NCBI GenBank assembly: GCA_030386875.1
Contig: CM059562.1
Coordinates: 65,346,201-65,410,200 of the forward strand
Direction of reading: 5' to 3'
Source of the DNA: Morinoia aosen
Lineage: Eukaryota; Arthropoda; Malacostraca; Amphipoda; Talitridae
DNA: 64,000 nt
The position numbers were made by a program, and so were the translations under genes. Below, in pieces: positions 4,541 through 59,985 of the stretch (its first letter is position 1; each line of letters starts with the position of its first letter). The notes beneath the pieces are model-generated. The model did not search any database. It was not told the DNA's origin and worked only from the letters and a program-made list of their open reading frames with translations.

Positions 4541-4695
4541 TTTCAAAATTTTGAGATCAGCAAAGACAAATTCAATTTTTTGACCAAAGCTTTCGGCTAG
4601 ATTAGCTCGTTCCCCTGATGACGGCTAGAGCTAATCTAGCCGAAAGCTTGGGTCAAAAAATTGAATTTGTCTTTGCTGATCTCAAAATTTTGAAA
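4541..4695. repeat. Long hairpin: 67-bp arms, 21-bp loop
   Basis: Positions 4541-4607 and 4629-4695 are near-perfect reverse complements (TTTCAAAATTTTGAGATCAG in the left arm). The loop holds CCCCTGATGACGG. The high arm identity and lack of coding potential suggest a palindromic MITE or a recent inverted duplication. Transcription would give a long double-stranded stem. Confidence 0.9.
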
Positions 4696-6753
4696 AAATG
4701 AAAATGTTTTTATAGTGTACAGTCTACCACTACTGACTATTCTGCATACAGTTTCGAAACAAATGGTCAGCTGACTTTGCATAAATCAATTATTCCGTAC
4801 TTCTGCTCTCAAACTTCGCACTATGAAGTTAAAAACGCTCGGGTGATCGATGAATTTGATAGTTTTGTAGTTAATGATCTTGATGGTTTCATGCTCGTTT
4901 TGAGCTACAATGTTTGATCACATTCTCAAGAGTCGACATTGATTGTCGCAATAGATAAAGTGTTAGTAACAGGTTGGGGAACCAGGAGAGTGGGTAAAGC
5001 AATGCTTTGCTTCCGAGTAAAAGTAGCCCCTTATTACTGTGTTATTATAACTTCAAGCTCGCTGAAATCAAATTCTTTCCGTACATTCGTCTACCTCGGC
5101 ATGATGAAAAACGGTGGGCGCTTGTAGCATGTCGTAGGTGCTGTTGGAGCTGCTCTTCGAATCCATCTCTAAGTTCGCTTGCTCGCCCCTGTTTTCATTA
5201 CGAACTGCCTTGAATTTCTTTCCCATTTTTTCTTTCTCCTTGAAACTTGAGTTATGCTGGGAGAAGGCCTTAATTTCTTTTGAAACAGATGACGGGGTCA
5301 CACTTTTTCAAACAACTGTTGTGAAAGTACATAATCGGAACGTTATTAAAGTCTTCCTTTTAGCTGACCATTCAAGCAGCAATTTCATCGCAATTTCGGT
5401 TCATGGCCCAATCGATCGGAACTCAACAACTGGGCTAATTTACGGAAGTTATTTTCAGATCATCAGTGGAGAAAATGAAAATAGTGCTCGCGGGAAAATG
5501 AACTAGGTTTTTTCTCTGTGAGGAAATACCTCCTCACCTTTAGAACCTCAGTTCTATTATATTCATTTGTCCAAAATAAAGAAAGTAATAACTAAAATCA
5601 AAAGAAATACGGCCATTTGCATTTCAGCTGGGAAATATGAAATTTATTTGTGTACGTTCTGAATTCTTGATATATTTATGCGTAGGTGCTTATTGATAGG
5701 TTTGCGAGTGCGTACCGTCGCAGGGAGATCCAAACAACCATCATGAAAATATAGTTCTAGACACACTTTGAGGCCTACGAAGTATTTCGATGAATTATCG
5801 GGGTTGCGCTTCAATCTAATTCTCTTTTGCTGAAATAAGACCAGTCTGCATGAGGCAACCTGTTGACGGATGACGACGCGTCAAGGAGGTACGCTGCAGA
5901 GAAAAGTTACATGGCCTTAATTTATAATCGCAGAGCAAGTTTCAAAAACACGTACTCATCAGAGACTTTTTCTGAAGTCCGTTTATAAAGAAAGTGAGCT
6001 TAAAAGGTAAAAAAACGGCGAACATGTGCGACTTCAGCTGCATAAATTCCCTTGTTTGCCCAAGTGTCACCTTCCGTCTAGCGCCTTCTATATAATGTTT
6101 CGTGATGATGGTGGCATTTGTAGACTCAGTATATTGTACAGATGTTCCCAAATATACTGCCGGCTACCAGCAAATCTTTGTTCGTTGAACTCGCGCTGAA
6201 ACTTCACCAAGCTTATCGCACAAAAGTAGTTGATTTAACCCCTTCAAACTCATGAGAATTTGTTCAGCCTGTTCTGGCTACAGAGCTCTGTGTGTAAAAA
6301 GATGCCAACTCAAACAGCAAAGGATACTTCGCTAGCCTGAGGCATACATAACTTCAGGCGTTGAACAACTTCTCTTTCATCCTTATCAATTTCTTTGTTG
6401 CATTCCTTCAGTTTAATTTCGTAATGACTGTCCGAGATGAGCTGTTTAATAGAGACACAGAGTTCAATCCACTACTAAATGAAGGAAAATTATTTCATCT
6501 ATTAGTGTGCACGACCCGTCAAAAATAATGGAATTCAATACCTTTCTTGATCTAATTTTCCAGATCTAGATGGCAAACAAATACTTCCATCCTAACAGCA
6601 CCCGTGATGAAAAATATTCTTGTACTTGTGTACTGGTGAAACTCGAATCACAGATTCTGTTATTATACTGTAACTATCCCTACAAGCGTGATATTATTAG
6701 GTAATTGCAGGACCCGTGGGAATTACACGGGCAATATAATCGTTAATTAAACT
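4696..6753. other. No gene seen
   Basis: AT-rich. Overlapping ORFs on both strands at 5068-5506 have no recognisable domain and no credible splice context. Confidence 0.55.
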
Positions 6754-6769
6754 ACACCTTTTTCACTTC

Positions 6770-7012
6770 AAATTAATCTAAGTCAAGTTCAATTTAATCC
6801 AAGTCAAGTTCAAGTTAATCCGAGTCAAGTTCAAATTAATATGAGTTAAGTTCAAATTAATCCAAGTCAAGTTCAATTTAATCCAAGTCAAGTTCAAGTT
6901 AATCCGAGTCAAGTTCAAATTAATCCAAGTCAAGTTCAAATAAATCCAAGTCAAGTTCAAATTAATCCGAGTCAAGTTCAAATTAATCAGAGTCAAGTTC
7001 AAATTAATAAAA
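6770..7012 (-). repeat. 21-bp minisatellite, left arm of the foldback element
   Basis: About 11-12 units of AAGTCAAGTTCAAATTAATCC with scattered substitutions. On the minus strand the unit reads as a heptapeptide of the INLNLTW type. The array is the mirror image of the one in the right arm. Confidence 0.93.
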
Positions 7013-7917
7013 AATGACATAATAATTTGTTAATATGAGTTTTTTGTGTTAAATATGTCTCTACAGGATGTGATGAGCAGAACTTGTTTCAAGGATTTAT
7101 TTACACTCATAGATATTTCTGTACGTGAAATTCCACTTTACCATATATATGAAATCATATACATGCAAGTATAAAATATTATCATTGGAGGATATGTAGA
7201 TTCAATCTTTAAAAGAAATATACAAGTGCGATTCACTGAGTACTAATGTACATTCCGTTTAATTACAATTTATATTCGTACATTATTACTCAGATACATT
7301 CACGCATTAGCAATATAAATGCTGCCATCCATTCTAATTCCGTGTTAGTCAATGTGAAGAAATGTAGGATCCACTTACAATACACAATAATAATACAAGA
7401 AACAATGTTTCTAATTCAGTACTGATTTTATTTTTGTGTGTTTATAATTCAATATAAAATACTTTTAAGACTTCAATAACTTTTATAATAATCATTTTAT
7501 GAATATTCAAGTCTTGAAAGTATTATATAGTGAATTGTGAACTCACACAAATAAAATCAGTATTAAGTTAGAAACATTGTTTCTTGTATTATTATTGTGT
7601 ATTGTGGGTGGATCCTACATTTCTTCACATTGACTAAAACGGAATTAGAATTGATGGCAACATTTATATTGCTAATGCAAGAATGTATCTGGGTAGTAAT
7701 GTACAAATATAAATTGTAATTAAACGGAATCGTACATTAGTACTCAGTGAATCGCATTTGTATATTTCTTTTAAAGGTTAAATCTACATATCGTCCAATG
7801 ATAATATTTTGTACTTGCATGTATTTGATTTCATATATGTGGTAAAGTGGAATTTCACGTATATAAATATCCATGAGTGTAAATGAATCTTCGAAACAAG
7901 TTTTGTTCATCACATCC

Positions 7918-7952
7918 AAAACATCACATCACATCACATCACAACCACATCC
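7918..7952. repeat. CACAT pentanucleotide microsatellite
   Basis: Four or more tandem CACAT/ATCAC units in the right arm of the foldback element. The matching place in the left arm lacks the expansion, so the array grew after the palindrome formed. Confidence 0.8.
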
Positions 7953-8015
7953 AATATTTAACACAAAAAACTCAAATTAACAAATTATTATGTCATTTTA
8001 TAACTCAACTGAGGG

Positions 8016-8240
8016 TTGGATTAATATGAACTTGACTCGGATTAATTTGAACTTGACTTGGATTAAATTGAACTTGACTTGGATTAATTTGAACTTGTCT
8101 TGGATTAATTTAAACTTGACTTGGATTAATTTGAACTTGACTCAGATTAATTTGAACTTGACTCGGATTAATTTGAACTTGACTTGGATTAATTTGAACT
8201 TGACTTGGATTAAATTGAACTTGACTTAGATTAATTTGAA
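8016..8240 (+). repeat. 21-bp minisatellite, right arm of the foldback element
   Basis: About 10-11 units of the same 21-bp repeat in the opposite orientation (GGATTAATTTGAACTTGACTT). Unit variants (TGGATTAAATTG, CTCGG) occur in both arms in mirrored order, which fits descent from one palindromic element. Confidence 0.93.
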
Positions 8241-8280
8241 GTGAAAAAGGTGTTGATAGACCCTTGAATATATTCCGTCA

Positions 8281-8760
8281 ACATAACCTAACCTATGCTA
8301 ACCTAACGTATCTTAACCTAACATATCCTAACCTTTCCTATCCTAGCCGGACCTATCCTGATAAATTGTAAAGTCGATCTGTTAATGCTACACTGAGGTA
8401 TTCGGTATCCATGATTCCGCAAACTCAGACGAAAGCCGACACCAAACTAATACATGAATAAATAAGGAAATAAATATCTATATAATATTCCGCTTGTTCC
8501 TTCCTTAGTTAGCTAGTTAAGTTAGTCAGTTAGTCTGTCCGTTACGCTGTCATCCGAGTTAGCGGTATCATGGATACCGACCGAATTGCTGAGTGTTACA
8601 TCAAAAGATCGCCTTTACATGCATTGATATGTTTGACATTTTATCAGGATAGTTTAGGTTATGATGGGTTAAGTTAGGTTAGGACAGATTAGGTTTGGGT
8701 AGGATAGGTTAGGATATGTTAGGCTAGGATCGGTGAGGTTAGCATAGATTAGGTAGATTG
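8281..8760. repeat. Inverted repeat with degenerate CCTAA / TTAGG arms
   Basis: The left arm (8281-8350) is a run of degenerate CCTAACCTA-type units and the right arm (8645-8760) the complementary TTAGG type. Inside them, GGTATCCATGATTCCGC (left) mirrors GCGGTATCATGGATACC (right). The internal CTATCCTGATAAA mirrors TTTATCAGGATAG. Further TTAGG-like units extend to about 8890. TTAGG is the usual insect telomere repeat, but the degenerate units and inverted layout suit a non-autonomous transposon better than an old telomere. Confidence 0.75.
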
Positions 8761-37606: not shown

Positions 37607-38067
37607 CGTTATGAGCGTTCAGCTACATAAAATAAAATGGTTAACTATGAATGTAGATGGACTTCATAGAAGTTATATACGGATGTGTAGTTCAGATAAT
37701 TGTTTTTATGTTCTAGATTTTCGTCAGACAATGAATTTTATTTGCGTGTTATCTTCCAAAAGTGTTCAGTAAACGACGATAAACCTATTTTGGGATACTA
37801 TTTGCCTTTGCTGGAGCTAGCAATGATGGTCAAATAAATTTTCTGTGTTTTACATTTTTATATGAGATATTTGAGAAGAATTATTTACTGAAGAGATTGT
37901 ATTGAACACACATTTACTATACAGAATTACCGCCTGAAGAAATGCGAAGAAACATCAAAGGTTACATGTGAAATAATATGTAAATGATTTCCCATCACAA
38001 AACCTTGCGATATTTTCTCTCATCAAAGTAACAGCAAACACTAACAATTGCATGAACATTAAAAATG

Positions 38068-38354
38068 CACACAGCCACACGCTGGACTACACGTACACTG
38101 GGTGTATGAACACAGCCACACGCTGGACTACACGTACACTGGGTGTATGCACACAGCCACACGCTGGACTACATGTACACTGGGTGTATGCACACAGCCA
38201 CACGCTGGACTACATGTGCACTGGGTGTATGCACTCAGCCACACGCTGGACTACACGTACACTGAACGTATGCACACAGCAACACGCTGGACTACACGTA
38301 CACTGGTTGTACGCACACAGCTACAAGCTGGACTACACGTACACTGGGTGTATG
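38068..38354. repeat. 41-bp minisatellite, 7 units
   Basis: Seven head-to-tail 41-bp units with CACGCTGGACTACACGTACA as the core and ACTGGGTGTATG between. The first three units are almost identical; the last three carry substitutions. Because 41 is not a multiple of three, the repeat cycles through all frames and gives overlapping artefact ORFs of about 105 codons. Confidence 0.95.
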
Positions 38355-38839
38355 CATACAGTAAATATTTGAGATGCTCAAAACCGCATACATGTAACTG
38401 GTGTAGTAAAATTACGTAAACACGAATTAAAAGTTAGTTTTTCCAACGTTTACTTAATTTGTTATGGTTCTACTTTTTCTTCGAGTTGGTGAATTATGTA
38501 GGTCTTCATGCAATGGAAACTTGGACACCAACAAATGCACTCAATTCGATGTGAATAATTGAGGAAATTTCAAAAAGGGGAAGGGCATCAGGTAGAATAA
38601 CCGTTTGTACTTCGAGCATACATCTAACTTCGATCGATGACTTTCCTATTCAATATTTTTCGTAAATATAAAAGCTTTGCTAAACATATTTCACAGGAAG
38701 TTTTTACAGTGAACCTATGAAAGCTCAAGCTGCTTGTAGTTCTGCTGGAATTTTTGTACCAGATCTTATTCGGAATCTATATTGTCGCGCCGAACTCAAC
38801 TTAATAAGAAGTGACGATAAGTCACATGACCAACGTTAT

Positions 38840-40992: not shown

Positions 40993-41207
40993 TTTCGTGA
41001 GTTTCGGCATAACATCACTGAAGGTTAGATTTTACTTTCGTGAGTTTCGGCATAACATCACTGAAGGTTAGATTTTACTTTCGTGAGTTTCGGCATAACA
41101 TCACTGAAGGTTAGATTTTACTTTCGTGAGTTTCGGCATAACATCACTGAAGGTTAGATTTTACTTTCGTGAGTTTCGGCATAACATCACTGAAGGTTAG
41201 ATTTTAC
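40993..41207. repeat. 43-bp minisatellite, 5 identical units
   Basis: Five consecutive 43-bp units that read TTTCGTGAGTTTCGGCATAA and then on to GGTTAGATTTTAC, without a difference that I can see between units. Perfect identity implies very recent expansion or an assembly artefact. It lies in the large GPCR intron between the TM7 exon and the 88-nt exon. Confidence 0.96.
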
Positions 41208-44200
41208 TTTCCATCACTAAGGTTGTTGTACGGCTATCGTGTCTATTATACATATGTTGATAATGATCACTACGAACGTAACATAATAAGACAAAAATAG
41301 AAATTCGTCAATTTGACTGTCATTGAAAAAGAACAAATAAGCGTTTGTTGAACCAGGTCTAGAACCTCTCACTCAGTAATACTGTGAATACGAAAATGTT
41401 ACGCTTTTACTAAAGAGTTCTTCACAATTCATCAGAAGTCGCGCAACACGTGTACATGGAATACAAGCGAAGGCCCACCGAGGTAAAACTTTCTTCTTCA
41501 TAGTCATCAGTCTTTCATGGGAAGATAGGTTATTATTTTCTTTAGCCTTTATTAGTCACTCCTTTTTTTCGATGAATCGATGTATAGAAAGTGTTTGACC
41601 AACTTGCCTTATGGTATTTTTTTCAAAAAGTAATCTTGGTTTATTGGTTTATAATTATTGGTTTTGAAAGAGTTCGGATTTTTAGCTGTTTCCGGGTAAT
41701 ACAAACCGTGCTGGATATTTTTTATTGGCTTACACAGAAGTCATGCAGCGTCTGACCCGACTGTCAGAGTTCAATTCCTACTAGACAGACTGACGGGATG
41801 CGGAAATTTGTTATTTGCCTCACTTGGGCCGACGGACGCCAGACTGAGAATCTTTGATCAACGTCTTTGATATGTGCGTCAGAACGCACATATTTCATCA
41901 GGTCTGCGAGATACCTGAATCATAGATGGAAATAAATAGTTTGCTAGTCTATTTCTGCGGAGCGACTGCATTGAAATTTTGTTGAGTAGCGAGTTGCTTC
42001 TCTCCTTTGGGGAATGGATTTGGTTGAAAGTGAACACTCGTTATTATTGAATAGCCTGAAAAAAGTTTTAGCAGGAAAACTACTCACCCTCAGAAAACCA
42101 GTGTGAGGCCTATAATTGATTTTTTTTACTTCATGAATTTAAAATTTGTTGCGTTCTTATCCACGGATAAGAACTAATGCTTTTTATTGACCTAGGATGA
42201 TTTCAAATTCTACACTTATAGCAATTCCTTTATAATTGGATGGATTAATTCCAATGCGTTCGTTGTCAGAGAACAGATCCGATGTTCTAACGTGCTGAGT
42301 CTTTTCCTTTTATCCAAAGACGGCCCTTGCTGCATGAGCCCAGTTGACATTTTCATGACCCGATCACTTGTGAAACTTTTGATATCTATTCTCTGACAGG
42401 GATCAGTGTCCCGATGACTGTCGAAATTTTGATATACCTCAAATAGAAATGCGTATGGTCGAATGTAACCAATTTTGTTTTCATGTGGTTCCGACAGGCT
42501 AGACATCAGTGGCCGCGAATTTCTCTTCTGAAATTACGAATAGTTTGAGTCCTAGTTAAAGAAAATGCGATGCCCCGAGCTGGTTAGGTTGGTTACTAGG
42601 TTGGTTACGAGCTAGTTACTATTAGAGCAAACGTGTTTTTTAGGGTTGATGCTTACATCAAAATTTTGATACAAGGTAGCATGTTGAAAGTTTAAGCTAC
42701 ATGTTGTCACTGGCAGTACGTTTTGTAAGAAAATTTCTGATATAATCCAGCAAGAGAAGAAAGCTACTTAAGTTGACAATTATTTTCCATTTTTTGTCAG
42801 TAGCGGAACATGGCTTTCTACAACTCTTTGGCTGTTATATTTATAACATTCTAGGGGTAGAAGAGACTGTACTCGAAGAATGCTTCATCATTAACGTCTG
42901 CCTTAAACAAAGATGAAAATTTCCTGTCTGATTTTCCACGCTATTTGCAAATCGCTTTCAAGACTCGTAAATCTATTGACGCCTGAGCAGTAACCATAAT
43001 GAAAGTCACCATCAAACATCGCTGATATTCTTTTTGCGAAAACTTTGACGAAAATCTTGAGCTATTTTTTCACTTTGCTTTCGGAATAACGCATTTAAGT
43101 TTTAATCTTCGTTAAATAACTTAGCCTCAGACTTAATTTAATTCAAAATTATTTTTAGCCAAACGAAAGCTGCAAAATTACAATTTCCATCTTCATTTGT
43201 AAGGTTTTTCCAAACGCGTTTTTCTGTTTCTAGTGCATAGTTCTGTAATTGACGAAATGTTCACCAATTATTAAGTTTCATTCGTTTCCCTGTTCCTCGC
43301 CTGCTGCAATTTCAGACATAAATTGGCTCAAGAGAATTTTTGTTTTTGTATTCAGGTTTTATTTCATACCATTATCAATAATCTGTTATTTATTAAAAAT
43401 CATATCCTAGAAACAATATCCAAGTACGAGAAACAAAGAGGCGCCAGGGCCGAATGTAAACAAGGATTCTTACGAGGCTGAAAATTTTATTTCGTGTTTT
43501 TTGTGAATCATGGAAGGGATAGGGTTTGAAACCAAGAAGTTAAAAAATACTCTTATGCACAAAACTAAAAATAACTCTCAGGCTAAAACTAAATTGATCC
43601 TAGTGTTTTAGCTATAGCTTCATTTTTAGAACTACAATCTACCATGTGCATGCAAATAATTCACTCACAATATATAATGCTACACACATACCTGTTGTAA
43701 AAAGCTGCCCAATCGAGCCCTATATTTCTGGTGTAATTCTTCACTGAGTGTGCGCGTTTTCACTCCTAAAGCAAACCGAGCACAACACGAGCAAAAATGC
43801 ATCGTACATTGCAGCACATTTCTAAGCTATGAAGAACAAACACACACTGCATCGTAACTAACAATGTGCTAATACCTGACACGTCATAGGAGTATCTTCA
43901 TGAAGCATAATAGCCTACACACGAATAATGCGCACATTTTGGAACATCTTCGATTTTGTTCGTGAATATGAATGATCATCAAAATTTGTGTCAATGAGAA
44001 AAATTTCCTTCATTTCCAGAAGTGACATTACTGTATCTGATGTAATCATTTTGAGAAGCAAACCTCGATTGATACTTTTTCCCCAACATCGAGCCTCTAC
44101 AGAACACAAGTATGGAATAGCTTCATAATTAATGAACAAATTCTCGTCCATCCTTCTCCGCGGTATTCTGCATGTCCACTGTATACAAATCATTACTCTG

Positions 44201-46570: not shown

Positions 46571-46838
46571 TAGAGTATTTCTCAAATATGACTCACTCCT
46601 GTGGTAGAACATGATGATTGACTATACTAGAGTATTTCACAAATTAAACTCACATCTATGGTACAAGGCGATAATTTACTGTACTAGAGTATATCACAAA
46701 TCAGACTCACTCCTGGGGTACAACGCGATGATCGAGTGTTCTAGAGTATTTCATAAATTAGACTCACTTCTATGGTACAAGGCGATAATTTACTGTACTA
46801 GAGTATATCACAAATCAGACTCACTCCTGTGGTACAAC
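46571..46838. repeat. 57-bp tandem array at the 3' edge of the TM7 exon
   Basis: TAGAGTAT recurs at 46571, 46628, 46685, 46742 and 46799, exactly 57 bp apart, giving about 4.7 units. Alternate units resemble each other more, so a 114-bp higher-order unit is likely. The unit is 19 codons, so a plus-strand frame stays open with a repeated [TS]RV-x-HK peptide; I do not regard that as a gene. On the minus strand the array meets the coding end of the TM7 exon and brings several GT-containing donor look-alikes. Confidence 0.92.
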
Positions 46839-46990
46839 GAGCTCCTCCGACTGTGCCTGCAGGTGAGCAGCGCCAGCAGGCCCCTCCTGAGGCTGCTGTT
46901 GAAGCTGCAGTAAATGATGGGGTTGATGGCGCTGTTGGCGTGGGCGATGAAGTACGACACGTATTCTACCGTCCCAAACCATTCCGGTAA
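46812..46990 (-). CDS. GPCR exon: TM7 and proximal C-tail (3' end uncertain)
   Basis: The acceptor cttgtcacgcag|TTA opens a phase-0 exon encoding LPEWFGTVEYVSYFIAHANS, then AINPIIYCSFNSS (the NPxxY motif), LRRGLLALLTC with a possible palmitoylated cysteine, and a basic serine-rich tail. The 3' end is not settled. The next exon needs a phase-2 donor. Three candidates exist: after 46812 (TTT|gtgata, used here), after 46839 (CTC|gttgta) and after 46857 (CAG|gcacag, a GC donor). The textbook-looking GA|gtgagt nearby is in phase 1 and does not fit. A 57-bp tandem array begins at this exon edge, so repeat expansion may have altered the original donor. Confidence 0.82.
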
Positions 46991-48835: not shown

Positions 48836-49022
48836 CTGGACATCTTTGTTGACATTCGTGTAGAGTATGAGCGATTGCAACGGTGTCCAGCAGATGACGA
48901 AGACGACCACTACTACAGTGACCATCTTCACGACTTTTTTCTTGCTCCTGCTGACCGTCAGACGCGATTCAGCGCAGTGTTCCCCCGGCAGCTGCGACGC
49001 CCACAGCCGCCACACGACCAGG
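48836..49022 (-). CDS. GPCR exon: intracellular loop 3 and TM6
   Basis: The acceptor is tatgatcccag|CC and the donor GTCCAG|gtaacc; the exon is 187 nt, phase 2 to phase 0. The first base completes a serine codon, giving SYS-LVVWRLWASQLPGEHC. The basic stretch SRSKKKVVKM leads into TM6 (VTVVVVVFVICWTPLQSLIL) with the CWxP switch, then the third extracellular loop YTNVNKDVQ. LW-x3-LPG at the cytoplasmic end of TM5 matches the pattern in orexin receptors. A 91-bp tandem array starts immediately upstream of the acceptor, so the array makes up the 3' end of the preceding intron. Confidence 0.92.
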
Positions 49023-49440
49023 CTGGGATCATAAAGTCACATTTACAACTGCGTGACATGCACCTCAAATACCCCAAATAGTCTATACTTTCTATTTTAA
49101 GCCGATACTGAATGTGGGTTCATAAAATCATATTTTCCACTGCGTGACTTGCGGGTAAAATACCCAAAGAGATCCGCCCTTTCCATTTCAAATTGATACT
49201 GAATAGGGGATCTTTAAGTCACATTTGCAGCTGCGTGGCGTGCAGCTTAAGTACTGCAAAAGATCCATACTTTCTATTTGAAGCCGATACTGAATGGGGA
49301 ATCATAAAATTAGATTTATCAATGTGTGACATATACACCCTAAGTGTCCCAAAGGACCCATACTTTAAGATTCCATCTGAAACTAAACGTGAGATCATAG
49401 AGCCAGATCATCGCATGGGTGACAAGCATTTTGAATTTCT
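49023..49440. repeat. 91-bp tandem array next to the TM6 exon acceptor
   Basis: About four and a half diverged units with a period of 91 bp: the landmark GATACT recurs at 49104, 49195 and 49286, with a weaker match near 49378. The first unit abuts the exon boundary, so the splice acceptor tatgatcccag belongs to the repeat. Other units hold similar minus-strand motifs such as cccacattcag and ccccattcag, which are weak acceptor look-alikes. Divergence between units is clearly higher than in the 69-bp array. Confidence 0.85.
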
Positions 49441-53446: not shown

Positions 53447-53616
53447 CTGTAACTGGCGACCATGACGGTGACAGGCATGAAGTAAATAGCGATGATAAAG
53501 AATGTGTAGAAGAGCTTCTTGGGATCGGACGTAACGATGCATGACATTTTCTCGACGTCAAAGTACCCTTCAACTGGCCAGAATTCATCGCAGTGCCACA
53601 CACGCATGTCTTTCCA
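53447..53616 (-). CDS. GPCR exon: extracellular loop 2 and TM5
   Basis: This 170-nt exon lies between the acceptor cctgtctgcag|TGG and the donor TACAG|gtgagc, going from phase 0 to phase 2. It encodes WKDMRVWHCDEFWPVEGYF and onward through MSCIVTSDPKK. The HC of WHCDEFWP is the probable disulfide partner of the TM3 cysteine. TM5 follows (FYTFFIIAIYFMPVTVMVAS) with the conserved proline. The CDE-x-WP motif is shared with the orexin/allatotropin receptor group. A second cysteine (MSC) in the loop is unusual and could form another disulfide. The exon is clearly more GC-rich than the introns around it. Confidence 0.92.
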
Positions 53617-54284: not shown

Positions 54285-55753
54285 TGGAACTATTTCGTAA
54301 GGCTGAAAAGTTAGAAAAGAAAGATTGAATATGTTACACGGGCTCTGTGGCGTGAACTTAGATGTAATCAATGGTAATGTACGCAAGCAGGCTTCTGAAA
54401 TGTCTAAAATATAGTTTCATTAAAGTCATTAATTTCCCTAAATTTGTTGATTTATTTCAAAATATTTCCTCACAGGTTAAATCACTTTAAAATTATTTTA
54501 GATGCTCTACGCTAGAAGCACTAGCCATCTTGGCACTAGAGTAACCGTCAGTAACCAAAGGGCTCAAATAGAAACGCTCTGAGAGATTTTCCTCGCGTGG
54601 ACTGCGTACACGTGTTTCTCGTGGGCGTTCCAAGAAAACACATTAATTAAGTGCGATAGGAAAACTCCGCGCCGCCACCTGAAACGCAATCTTCTCAAAT
54701 GTACAAGGCGGATAGGAACGGAGTTAAAAGGCTATTTTTATACGTTGTATTCACTGTCTTAGAATTAACTCAGTAATGAGGCACTCGGTTTTCTCTAGTT
54801 CCTGGAATCAGAGCTTTAGATAAGAAGACCTGTTCTGTAAACATTCCCACAGTTCACTCATTAATGTAGCTCTATAATTTTATTTTTTCCCTTTGCAACG
54901 AGTACGTGAAAAGAGAAACTGCTGTCACTGATGAAGCTAAACATAAATACATTCTAAAAATAGGTAAGATTTCAAAATGATAAAAAATTGGAAACCTTAT
55001 GCAAATACAACCAAAATTCCCTCGCGAAGGCAGACCAAGCAACGCGTGAGGTCACGCATTGATACTTAGCGAGTCCGGCCTGAGCTCGCTCCATAAAAAG
55101 TAAGAAGAAGGAAACCCTGCCATCTATTTCACTAGCATCTTTATTTTTCCATGTTCTGGAAATACGCTACACACTGTTTCTGCTCTTGTAACGAACTTGA
55201 ATTTCCTGATGAGTAACTCTCTTTCTTGAGTGGTCCATTACTATTTATGTCATCTGCGGTGCCTGCGCGTGATTGCCGTCAGAAGGAATGAGACGGAACG
55301 AGGGTCGTTCCCAAAGAATGGGCAACTCTGTTCATTCCTGTTTGCCATATTGTAATTTATTCACTTCCGCATTTCATCAACTTTGCAAATACTGCATTTG
55401 CAGAGCAAGTACAGAAAAACTATTAGCCCTGCACTTCCCCTAACAGTTACAAGTTTATTTATGATGAATGGCAAAGGGAGAAAAAGCAGTTGAAGGCAAT
55501 AGAGGCAGCATTTAGCCAACCCTAAATCGTCCGGATTTTTCACTCATTCTATCATTGTTACAAAATCTACCAAACGATTGCCACTAGTATAAGGTCATTT
55601 TGATATCAGACTGGGGATTGAACTGGCACTCGGAGTGAACTCCGAAGAACACCAGCACAAATTTGTCAAGAAACATTATGCACACCAGTTGTTTATAAAA
55701 ATGGGTTGTGAAATCCAATTGAACAGTGAGGGAATCATGGCGAGCAATGCATA

Positions 55754-56394
55754 CATGTATTCTGTAGAGCTGCCTGTAGAGCAGCGAGGGCGAGGCGAGC
55801 AGGGCAGAAGCAAGCACACAGACCTGTATGCTGTAGAGCTGCCTGTAGAGCAGTGAGGGCGAGGCGAGCAGGGCAGAAGCAAGCACACAGACCTGTATGC
55901 TGTAGAGCTGCCTGTAGAGCAGTGAGGACGAGGGGAGCAAGGCAGAAGCAAGCACACAGACCTGTATGCTCTAGAGCAGTGAGGACGAGGCGAGCAGGGC
56001 AGAAGCGAGTGCACAGACCTGTATGCTGTAGACTGCCTGTAGAGCAGTGAGGACGAGGCGAGCAGGGCAGAAGCGAGTGCACAGACCTGTATGCTGTAGA
56101 GCTGCCTGTAGAGCAGCGAGGGCGAGGCGAGCAGGGCGGAAGCGAGTGCACAGACCTGTATGCTGTAGAGCTGCCTGTAGAGCAGTGAGGACGAGGCGAG
56201 CAGGGCAGAAGCGAGTGCACAGACCTGTATGCTGTAGAGCTGCCTGTAGAGCAGTGAGGGCGAGGCGAGCAAGGCAGAAGCGAGTGCACAGACCTGTATG
56301 CTGTAAAGCTGCCTGTAGAGCAGCGAGGGCGAGGAGAGCAGGGCGGAAGCGAGTGCACAGACCTGTATGCTGTAGAGCTGCCTCTACCCAGGTG
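55754..56394. repeat. 69-bp minisatellite derived from the TM4 exon, main block
   Basis: About nine and a half head-to-tail units of 69 bp fill this part of the GPCR intron. Each is a copy of the last 60 nt of the TM4 exon plus 9 nt of intron, including the donor ATACAG|gtctgt read on the minus strand. Units differ by single substitutions. One unit (near 55962) has lost 12 bp and the next has lost 1 bp. The leftmost units carry their own shared variants (aagcacac in place of gagtgcac), which suggests growth in steps. Long open frames on both strands are a by-product of a unit that is a multiple of three, and are not independent genes. Confidence 0.95.
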
Positions 56395-56555
56395 TCTGAA
56401 ATGGGTACCGGTCTCGACCGGGGGAAAGCGTCATGGCGTCCTGGCGTTAGTTATAAGGCATTTGAAAATCCAATGTACAAGGTGATATGTATTAGGCTTG
56501 ATTGGAAATAAAGCATCCGTAGATGCCTTCATTATTCATTATTATATTCATTATT

Positions 56556-56800
56556 AGAGCAGCGAGGGCGAGGAGAGCAGGGCGGAAGCGAGTGCACAGA
56601 CCTGTATGCTGTAGAGCTGCCTGTAGAGCAGTGAGGGCGAGGCGAGCAGGGCGGAAGCGAGTGCACAGACCTGTATGCTGTAGAGCTGCCTGTAGAGCAG
56701 CGAGGGCGAGGAGAGCAGGGCGGAAGCGAGTGCACAGACCTGTATGCTGTAGAGCTGCCTGTAGAGCAGCGAGGGCGAGGCGAGCAGGGCAGAAGCGAGC
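56556..56800. repeat. 69-bp minisatellite, exon-proximal block
   Basis: About three and a half units continue the same array and run into the authentic TM4 exon, whose end is the rightmost unit. The receptor frame stays open on the minus strand through these units until a TAA at 56554-56556. Donor copies at 56740, 56671 and 56602 are exactly 69 bp apart. About 160 bp of unrelated sequence (56395-56555), ending in an ATT-rich stretch, separates this block from the main one and looks like a later insertion or deletion scar. Confidence 0.95.
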
Positions 56801-56927
56801 CAGATGAGCAGGATGACTCGACATGCGCGGTCAGGGGACGTGTGGGCGCGCAGAGGGAACATGACCGCCACGAACCTCCCGACGCTGATTGCCGTCAGGG
56901 TCAGCACGCTGGCCGACAGAGCCGTCG
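56740..56927 (-). CDS. GPCR exon: TM3 and TM4
   Basis: The acceptor is tcttttgatag|CG and the donor ATACAG|gtctgt; the exon is 188 nt and runs from phase 1 to phase 0. With the preceding exon it reads FLQ-A-TALSASVLTLTAIS, a typical TM3, then SVGRFVAVMFPL. The DRY/DRF position therefore holds G instead of D or E. TM4 follows (ILLIWLASALLASPSLLY), ending at QLYSIQ. The last 60 nt of the exon plus the first 9 nt of the intron form the unit of a 69-bp tandem array that fills the adjoining intron. The donor at 56740 is repeated at 56671 and 56602 with the frame still open, so longer in-frame isoforms are possible. I chose the first donor because it gives a normal TM4 and loop 2 when joined to the next exon. 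Confidence 0.9.
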
Positions 56928-59750
56928 CTATCAAAAGATGCATAAAAAATCAAGCGAAGGCCTTTATTTCATCATGTGGTTTGAAGTTTGGTCCAAAAGC
57001 GTCTTGTAAGATATTTTGGTAAACGAGCTGAGTCAGCGAATGAAGTCGATGGATTCAGTTCGTCACCCAAAATCAGTTGAATGAGGTACGCTCTGGAATG
57101 TGAATATCTTTCGACACACATTGCGTGTTAACGCTAAAGATTTAATTCGTGATGATAATGATGTCAATGAAATACGAGCATTTACTAATAGTTAAACTGG
57201 GGACACTACTGCTCGAGTTTGTAGGATGTTTAGAAAATGAAAACGCATTTTCAAACCACTTAAGAGCAGTAGATTAGAATTGGTAATTATTTCCTGGTTG
57301 AGTGTATGTGCGAAAAATTATTGATTGAATTTAGCACATCGGTGTTTGAATTTCAGTACTTCGTTTTTATGGAATTCCTACCATATCAAGGCGAGAGTAC
57401 ATTAGTGTACTTTTAATTTTCGATAAGGCCCTAACTATTTTACATTTACTCATGATGGTGTCTTGTGTTCCTTGATTTTTGAGACTTCTAGCGTGCAGAG
57501 AAACTGCAGTACTCAAAGTTAAGTCTTGCCTTGCTCACGACGTTCTCCGGCAAATATGCTCCACATTCTTTGTGGTTGCCAAGCGTCGTGGCGAGGTGCG
57601 AGTTTGCTGCTCCGTTTGTTTGTCACACAGTTGATGCAGTAAACTAGCCCAAAGATCGGAGGTATTTCCATGGTAACAGAGGTTTGGGCTGCATTTCGCT
57701 AAGAACACCAGTTGGAATGAATAAATGCTTATTTTTTTGCTAACTCGATAATCCAGCGATTGTTCCGCCGACAAAATTCGTACATGAATGACGTATTAAT
57801 TGTATTATAGGTTTGGTAAAATATTAGTACCGTATTTGTTTTAAGGCTTTAGAATTTTACTCATGGAAGGTTTGACGACGTGATATCTTTAAGTTCACAA
57901 AACTATAGGTGGTTCACTTTTAATACTATTCCACAACGTAACAAATATTTTCTAGGTATATTTTCTCACATCATGCATAGCTAATACCAACCGTACAATT
58001 AACAAACTTCCCTATTATAGAGGAATTTTGAGACACAAATCAAAGGATAGAAACGTAAAGGATGGTTCGTTGAAATTATTGACCCCTGAAACAGATTCAG
58101 GAAGTATATGAATTCAAATACTGCTATTATCAAGCATCGATCCCGAGTGTTGATGTGCTGTGATAGATGAAACAATTCACTCAGAATGCATTGCGTCAAT
58201 ATTGATTAAATGTATCACTTCAGTAATTGTGATTTTTCATAATATGCTTACTCGTGCTGTTTTTCAGGCACAGCCGTCCAAGTACGGTTTTTGGTTGATC
58301 GTATTCCTCGGCCAAACTAAAAACTGTACACGAGCAAATTTTTCCAGTTGTTGAGGAAGTGCGTGAAATACAAATTAAACCCGTTAGATTTTGCTGATTT
58401 TTAAATTGAGAAATTATTTACGATGAACAGAGAAGTTAGGATTTCACTCATTGCACTAGCAAACAGGCTGCAATAATTACACTGTTCAATCTTTTCTGTC
58501 ACGTATTTTTCATTCAAAATTTGTCGTCATTGAGAATTGCATAAATCTACAAGTTCATTAACACTTTCCAAGTAATAGAATAAGTGCAGAGATAAGTCTT
58601 TACAACACTATTCATATGTGTGCATCTAAAAATTGCGTGGCTTAAATTTCGAGCTTCAGATGCCAGAAGATACTCCGAAGAACACAATCTATTCTAAAAT
58701 TAATGCATTGACAAGCACAACATGAAAAACTACTCTTCAACACTCTGTGCGTAGCTCTGCTGATATCTGTACGGCTGTGGAATACAGAAAATATATTTTT
58801 TTCCGTGCGTTAACTACCCACAGTGTCGAGATATTCGGCGTAATGCTGATGCCTGTGATCGTGCTCCGTGGTAAGATCTATACCCGTTTTGTTCATGGAA
58901 GTTGAAGCCCAAATCCTTCAAATCATTTACTTACTTGAACAAATATTTGAGAACCTTGTCACGAAAATGAGAATATTTCCTCAGGATTGATATCGGAAGC
59001 CTTCCCATTCTGGTAGTGAAAAATTCGAGGTCATTTCTTCACCCTAAAATTTCCGGGATTGCATGGTTTCCAGAAAATGATTCGAGTCTAGGAGAGCTCA
59101 AAAATTAGTAAATTTGAAGAGAAAAACTGTGCAATTTGACTCTCATTCTGTGCGTTACTGAATTTTACTCAAAATTTCCGAAGCTTATTTTGGAATAACT
59201 TGAACTTAATTGTTCTAAATTATTGTCTTAAGTTTTATTTAGATGAAATGAGATGATTAATTGACTATCTGGAAATTTTCATTAATAAACGTTTACTGAA
59301 AATTCCTCGTGGGCCTAATGGATACCAAGTCGGTGAAATGAACTACAAATGAACACAGTAATTAGTATGCAAACAGACTCTCTAGGCTGTTAAGAAAATT
59401 GGTTCGTAATTTCACAAAGCTTGGGTCTTAATCGTTAATAAAAATCAATATACCTCGGTCACACAACGGTGGCTGCGCCTCACAAGAAGCGTGCTTGCCC
59501 GATAAAGCACCACGTGATCTCCTTGTTTACGAACTTTCAAGCAGGATGATGACAAACAAACAGGTGACTCACAAAAGATGATGAACATTGAACCACCGCA
59601 TGAAGGTACGTTACTGAACTGAGGTGTGAGTTATAAAACCGAATATACAAATAGTTAGACACCACATGTCGTCTGAGAGTGATCACAACCGTGTCTCAGC
59701 TTCCGAGTATAGCATTCGAGAAAACAGACTAGGGTCAATTAGGAATTTAC
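56928..59750. other. GPCR intron between TM2 and TM3-4 exons
   Basis: A 2.8-kb AT-rich intron with no repeat or nested gene recognised. Confidence 0.65.
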
Positions 59751-59985
59751 CTTGTAAGAAGCTATCGAGTCTGCAGACGAAGGCGGGCAGAACGTAGTGA
59801 GGAGAAGAGAGATGCCGCACTAGGTGCACCCACGTGCAGCACATGGCCACCAGCAGGTCGGCCACGGCCAAATTGACGAGGTAGCGGTTCGTGGAACTCC
59901 ATAAATTGGCGTTGCAGAAAACCACGAGGATAACCAGGAGGTTGCCCGCCACGGCCACCAGGAACACGAACACGTACATGCAAAT
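59751..59985 (-). CDS. GPCR exon: TM1, TM2 and start of TM3
   Basis: This 235-nt exon has a pyrimidine-rich acceptor (ttactttcctccag) just above 59985 and the donor CAAG|gtaaat below 59751. It enters in phase 0 and leaves in phase 1. It encodes about 78 residues: TM1 with the GN signature (FLVAVAGNLLVIL), intracellular loop 1, TM2 with NLAVADLL, extracellular loop 1, and the conserved TM3 cysteine in VCRLDSFLQ. The open frame continues upstream into the intron (to an ATG at 60102), but the good acceptor and the position of TM1 show that this extension is intronic. An upstream exon carrying the start codon and extracellular N-terminus must exist. No convincing phase-0 exon was found between 59986 and 64000. 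Confidence 0.92.

Follow-up and report, generated by a model that had tools for sequence, protein, structure and literature searches.

A minisatellite made of an exon end and its splice donor in a class A receptor gene of the amphipod Morinoia aosen

The closest described counterpart of the array presented here is the VNTR of the human CBS gene. The original paper on this VNTR, by Lievers in 2001, is said to have also observed alternative splicing. In the entry that names it c.1444_1467+7(16_21), the CBS repeat has units of 31 bp, each made of 24 exonic and 7 intronic nt, in 16–21 copies (PMC2630376), and a table locates it at exon 13–intron 13 (PMC1395315). A higher number of units goes with a lower CBS activity according to a review, which terms the repeat non-coding where it discusses it (PMC5188458). 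Another variant of the same gene, c.844_845ins68, is listed as a 68-bp duplication across an intron/exon junction with a normal mRNA (PMC2630376). Intron gain by tandem duplication, as summarised for a potato RdRp gene, also involves duplicated exonic sequence that brings extra splice sites (PMC4974935). Among the matches listed when the literature was searched by title and abstract, the CBS repeats are the only arrays recognised as having this anatomy.

The array that we describe lies in a receptor gene, within a stretch of 64,000 nt of M. aosen DNA that was analysed as a whole (hereafter the window). Like in the CBS VNTR as described, each of its units consists of an exon end and an intron start, and thus contains a copy of a 5' splice site. 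The number of copies varies between CBS alleles, from 16 to 21 in the published notation; it is 13 versus 2 in the two probable alleles found here. The gene and the sequence are unrelated to CBS, the unit of 69 bp amounts to 23 codons whereas the 31 bp of CBS are not a multiple of three, and the array is interrupted by a SINE-like insert, unlike the CBS repeat. An effect on enzyme activity is reported for CBS. The resemblance to c.844_845ins68 is that of a short tandem duplication over a splice junction of a coding gene, but the latter is a single duplication on the intron 7/exon 8 side, whereas here the exon end and then its donor are repeated in many units. In the potato case, as summarised, a new intron arises, while no new intron is shown for the receptor array. 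A first-pass annotation of the window had presented such an amplified exon–intron junction as rare; the human CBS VNTR, as described in the sources above, and a second array in this genome are precedents. The kind is already known; the new element is a receptor gene whose repeated unit is 23 codons long and whose two copies differ as 13 versus 2.

The receptor gene is encoded on the minus strand. Five exons with in-phase joins give an open 320-aa protein with seven TM segments: the TM1-2 exon (59985..59751, donor AAG|GTAAAT, the bar marking the exon end), the TM3-4 exon (56927..56740, 188 nt, acceptor ...TTTTGATAG), the TM5 exon (53616..53447, acceptor CTGTCTGCAG|TGG, phase 0), which is the next exon past the array, the TM6 exon (49022..48836) and the TM7 exon, including the stop codon as modelled (46990..46808). 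The TM3-4 exon, which was placed by its Pfam match and by the in-phase joins, matches Pfam 7tm_1 with an E value of 3.5e-12; this match and the reading frame that is open across seven TM segments assign the gene to the rhodopsin-family (class A) GPCRs. A search for relatives gave 808 distinct sequences at E≤0.001, and the nearest solved relatives by sequence, taken from the best 60 of the 808, are the receptors of neurokinin and of neuropeptide FF (E 3.1e-36 for the neuromedin-K receptor). The 320-aa model has no start codon, therefore one or more first exons, which were not found, are absent from it.

On the minus strand, the TM3-4 exon terminates at ATACAG|GTCTGT. Splitting the sequence at ATACAG, with an alignment of the units, defines an exon-side copy of 60 nt (56799..56740) and, in the intron, an array of 985 bp (55755..56739) which holds 12 further units on the same strand and which TRF, exon-side copy included, calls as two blocks (55756-56383 and 56555-56799). 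Of the 12 units, nine are 69 bp long, two are shorter (68 and 57 bp), and unit 4 is split by an insert. An intact unit is made of 9 intronic nt (GTCTGTGCA, or GTCTGTGTG in the last three units) and of 60 exon-like nt. The similarity to the exon begins 60 nt before the exon end, in agreement with the unit alignment, which bears out the unit proposed in the first-pass annotation (the last 60 nt of the TM4 exon followed by 9 intronic nt). The unit therefore crosses the exon end and the first intron bases, including the 5' splice site, and it is present in multiple head-to-tail copies (the exon copy and 12 units), as in an exon–intron junction VNTR. Donor 1, at the exon end, is CAG|GTCTGT; 11 more donors of this sequence follow in the intronic array, whose far-end donor is CAT|GTATGC. 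The ladder of near-identical donors that had been claimed is thus observed, with 12 exact donors and one variant in a row of 13; the estimate of about 13 units, each with a 5' splice site, stands in so far as there are 13 donors, except that the last is this variant. The span initially given for the array, 55754-56927, includes the rest of the exon; only 55755-56739 is array, and 56740-56799 is its exonic source.

When the genome was queried with the DNA of two units, only the best candidates being scored, eight pieces were recovered, seven in the array itself and one elsewhere on the same contig, at C7:62804661-62804789. The junction 55-mer, compared to its downstream 1 kb, outscores all of the 616 other window positions that were sampled.

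The gene had been described as a single-copy receptor gene, but it is present at two sites in this assembly, the second site being collinear with the window and having one extra unit. Indeed, a protein query of the genome, in which only the best candidates were scored, found each of the five exons at two sites with 73–98% identity, all other matches being at 42% or less. The second copy is on the same contig as the window copy, about 2.6 Mb upstream; its segments are 88.6–97.6% identical to the window, the neighbouring segments 92.7–99.2%, and part of the 63.00 Mb region has a 90% partner at 65.645 Mb. The coding sequences differ at 8 of 963 nt, all 8 differences being synonymous and none nonsynonymous, so that the 320-aa protein is identical. 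At the array site, the second copy has 70 bp instead of the 985 bp of the window, between flanks that are 97.7% and 95.7% identical. Its lone extra unit is decayed overall and 1 nt longer than 69, and it matches units 2 and 5 of the window over its first 33 nt (9 of the 12 units were compared). In this second copy, the score of the junction is reached at 9 of 425 positions.

We believe that the two copies are quite probably unmerged haplotypes, that is, alleles, because they are collinear, share patches of 99% identity and show no amino-acid change, and because other 7tm_1 matches come in pairs of equal score. At least eight other such pairs were counted by eye, each on one contig with equal or near-equal scores and some of them inverted, which suggests that the assembly contains unmerged haplotypes. 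In another presumed copy pair (L004/L005), a 26-bp array has 4.2 copies on one side and 16.2 on the other. If the copies of the receptor gene are haplotypes, then a single animal has alleles with 13 and 2 repeats, the exon copy being counted in both; these numbers hold for the two gene copies, which are probably, not certainly, alleles. The less likely reading, to which we give a minor but real weight, is that of a true segmental duplication, in which case the difference in array length is one between paralogues and not between alleles. The location of both copies on one contig, 2.6 Mb apart, and an intronic identity that goes down to 88.6% in one segment are in its favor; the collinearity from 62.60 to 63.00 Mb, the 99% patches, the unchanged protein and the eight or more same-contig 7tm_1 pairs, as with unmerged haplotypes, argue against it but are not decisive.

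The insert that interrupts unit 4 (56384..56554, about 171 bp, plus strand) belongs to a dispersed family and has in-frame stops at its edge. Of the 41 family matches listed, including the insert itself, 39 others are 95–99% identical to it (from 924 first-look candidates), and on this account the insertion is probably recent. It arrived once unit 4 already existed. ARAGORN detected no tRNA gene in the whole window, and Rfam gave no match in 55000-57500 at E values up to 0.1, so the insert is called SINE-like only from its size, its A/T-rich tail and its dispersion.

The consequences of using each donor were obtained by modelling its splicing to the TM5 exon. Donor 1 gives the unaltered 320-aa receptor. 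Donors 2 and 3 give full-length products with 23 or 46 additional residues after TM4, and from donors 4 to 13 the frame closes at the border of the insert, 202 modelled residues having been read. Donor 2 of the second copy causes a frame shift, and donor 1 is thus the only one that yields the unaltered receptor in both copies. The rightmost, exon-side donor is accordingly predicted to be the exon end, and it is the best-supported one: the earlier proposal that the rightmost unit is the authentic exon end agrees with the in-phase join to TM5 and the open 320-aa 7TM protein, and is further supported by the identical protein of the second copy and by the frame shift from its donor 2. Donor 1 deviates from the 5' splice donor consensus, with C at +3 and T at +4. 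Its computed pairing with the 5' end of U1 is −8.5 kcal/mol, compared to −6.8, −8.3 and −11.6 kcal/mol for the other donors of the gene and −1.9 kcal/mol for the variant far-end donor CAT|GTATGC.

We argue that the array is most likely a near-neutral exon-junction minisatellite (a VNTR) that is anchored on a constrained exon end, and that entails a risk of mis-splicing on the long copy. It would have begun as a tandem duplication that spanned the TM4 exon end together with the 9 bases at the start of the intron, and slippage or unequal exchange would then have expanded it into the intron. Selection on the receptor would keep the exonic copy, while the intronic copies would drift and gain indels, and would have taken up the SINE-like insert. 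Splicing would most likely still occur from donor 1, the dominant site in this scheme, the other donors being mostly passive passengers; the risk for the long copy would be that of in-frame additions of 23 or 46 aa (donors 2 and 3) or of truncation (donors 4–13), and the effects on fitness would be small. We favor this explanation because of the anatomy of the array, the phase of donor 1 and the identity of the protein in both copies, because 70 bp face 985 bp between well-matched flanks and the units vary in ways that the exon copies do not, and because arrays are common in this DNA and also differ in length in the L004/L005 pair. Counted against it are that donor 1 is off consensus and identical to 11 others, that the copies may instead stem from a true segmental duplication, and that three arrays are found at the edges of this gene (see below).

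The average difference among the nine ungapped units is 6.7%, a value within the range of 2.4–11.4% found between aligned segments of the two gene copies; by this loose dating, the array and the split of the copies may have about the same age. Either the window copy may have expanded or the second copy may have contracted. The only difference between the exon copies inside the unit is a synonymous one, TCG/TCA, and TCA is present in 7 of the 12 intronic units; that TCG and TCA segregate in both exon and units would be expected under an exchange of sequence between exon and array. The intronic units also contain indels and variants that alter the protein, and both exon copies are free of these. 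In the 9 units of the 12 that were counted (the interrupted one and two with deletions were left out), five of ten variant types are synonymous and five are protein-changing, where 50 of the 180 possible single changes would be synonymous (21 of 60 for transitions), and these are too few to decide. All 12 exact donors are unchanged, which may be read as a constraint and also counts against a near-neutral array, though most other positions of the unit are unchanged too.

Past the last unit, a weak similarity to the unit has a score that is reached by 0 of 500 shuffles in the second copy and by 16 of 500 in the window (2 and 24 of 500, respectively, when the same region is compared to the exon end alone); it may correspond to an older, decayed unit. 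The motif GCTCGC occurs twice, in the exon 1 nt ahead of the unit start and, past the last unit, 10 nt inside its flank; an origin of the array by microhomology at this motif is a lead only.

It may instead be that the donor ladder is functional, the repeated U1 sites acting as decoys or producing a graded set of isoforms in which TM4 is followed by 0, 23 or 46 additional residues, so that the output of receptor would depend on the number of copies. The 12 exact donors with their equal predicted U1 pairing of −8.5 kcal/mol, the 23 stop-free codons of the unit, which let donors 2 and 3 hold the frame, and the lower enzyme activity reported in the CBS review for higher unit numbers (PMC5188458) are compatible with such a function. 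We find it unlikely, since the second copy encodes the same protein without a ladder, 10 of the 13 donors of the long copy lead to truncated products in the model, and the 68- and 57-bp units break the frame.

A broader proposal is that exon ends are preserved master copies which repeatedly seed donor-bearing minisatellites into the next intron, the variable ladder modulating the splicing of receptors between haplotypes. It draws on the TM4-region exons, whose ends carry arrays in two of the five receptor genes (the window gene with its second copy, and L021), and we regard it as rather improbable. In L021 (C9:37961000-37970999), the TM4-region exon of another receptor, on the minus strand and ending at 5040, is associated with a decayed 52-bp array at 4550-4887, whose units copy the last 20 nt of the exon, the donor CAG|GTAAAT and the intron start. 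Like in the window, the units thus carry an exon end, its donor and the start of the intron, but this array is an older one at a more advanced stage of decay (68% matches in TRF), with more intron than exon per unit. The junction copies have a best local score of 52, for a maximum of 36 in 500 shuffles. Since the locus is full of arrays, 23 of its 155 background positions scoring as high as the junction, the placement of the array is not beyond chance; the junction copies are clear nonetheless. At the TM4-region exons of the L019/L020 pair, L022 and L023, no exon-end array was detected, as each score falls short of the average background of its locus.

The share of tandem arrays is 4.3% in the window and 4.8% in 159.5 kb over 16 other loci, a count that leaves out the small receptor loci L001–L008, the second copy of the gene with its neighbours, L020 (the partner of L019) and L039–L040. 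With arrays at about 4–5% of the sampled sequence, an occasional array across an exon end is therefore expected. That three of the nine arrays of the window, namely the 69-bp array and the 91-bp and 57-bp arrays described below, touch exon edges of this one gene is more than neutral turnover alone predicts: three are reached in 71 of 20,000 random placements, for a pattern that was noticed after the fact and with a choice of edges that was our own. In the genome, three CAGGTAAGT at gaps of 25–55 give 930 matches (431 + 499), versus 541 (353 + 188) for the pattern read backward, where multiple hits per array and repeat families at several places are all counted.

That the array is coding, the exon continuing through one or more units and adding 23-residue repeats after TM4, is very unlikely, even though, past the exon, the frame stays open for another two and a half units. 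We considered an exon that runs on through the array as the main form of the gene, and rejected it: the frame meets stops at the insert in unit 4, and in the second copy it is shifted by the additional unit. The additional residues would be repeated TM4 sequence without counterpart in the alignment to solved receptors, and five of the ten variant types, again too few to decide, are protein-changing. As for an assembly error, to which tandem arrays are prone, either in the array or in its absence from the second copy, it is very unlikely, as the units have distinct substitutions, indels and an insert, and the second copy has its own diverged unit at the same site.

With the near-neutral VNTR as the preferred explanation, the two copies look like a natural pair that encodes the same protein, one with 12 identical donors and a variant, the other with one such donor and a variant; this pair could reveal how one of several identical 5' splice sites in tandem is selected by the spliceosome. 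Automatic gene models may also insert 23-residue repeats of TM4 into such receptors.

Other arrays are present in this gene and elsewhere. A 57-bp array (46571-46839, 4.7 copies) has as its unit the last codons and the stop of the modelled TM7 exon (...YHRSESDL, then stop), and is 99.4% identical, without gaps, in the second copy. A 91-bp array (49025-49332, 3.4 copies, 70% matches) starts 3 nt outside the TM6 acceptor. Genome-wide, both match at this gene pair only, and between the copies there is no gap in one and a 15-bp difference in length in the other. At C1:39390554-39390642 and C2:21059092-21059656, there are minisatellites of about 40 bp that resemble each other and whose units each contain a consensus donor (CAGGTAAGT...GGAGCAGCGTG...).

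Last, the rest of the window contains a 41-bp array (38065-38361, 7.2 copies) and a 43-bp array (40993-41211, 5.1 copies, 100% matches). At 6733-8274, a foldback includes 21-bp arrays (6767-7008 and 8016-8240) that are mutual reverse complements; its arms of 256 nt are 90% complementary and enclose nested inverted repeats, and it looks like a foldback element of the transposon type. Next to it, two inverted TAACC/TTAGG-like arrays (8284-8359 and 8655-8754) lie about 300 bp apart, with units that resemble the arthropod telomere repeat.
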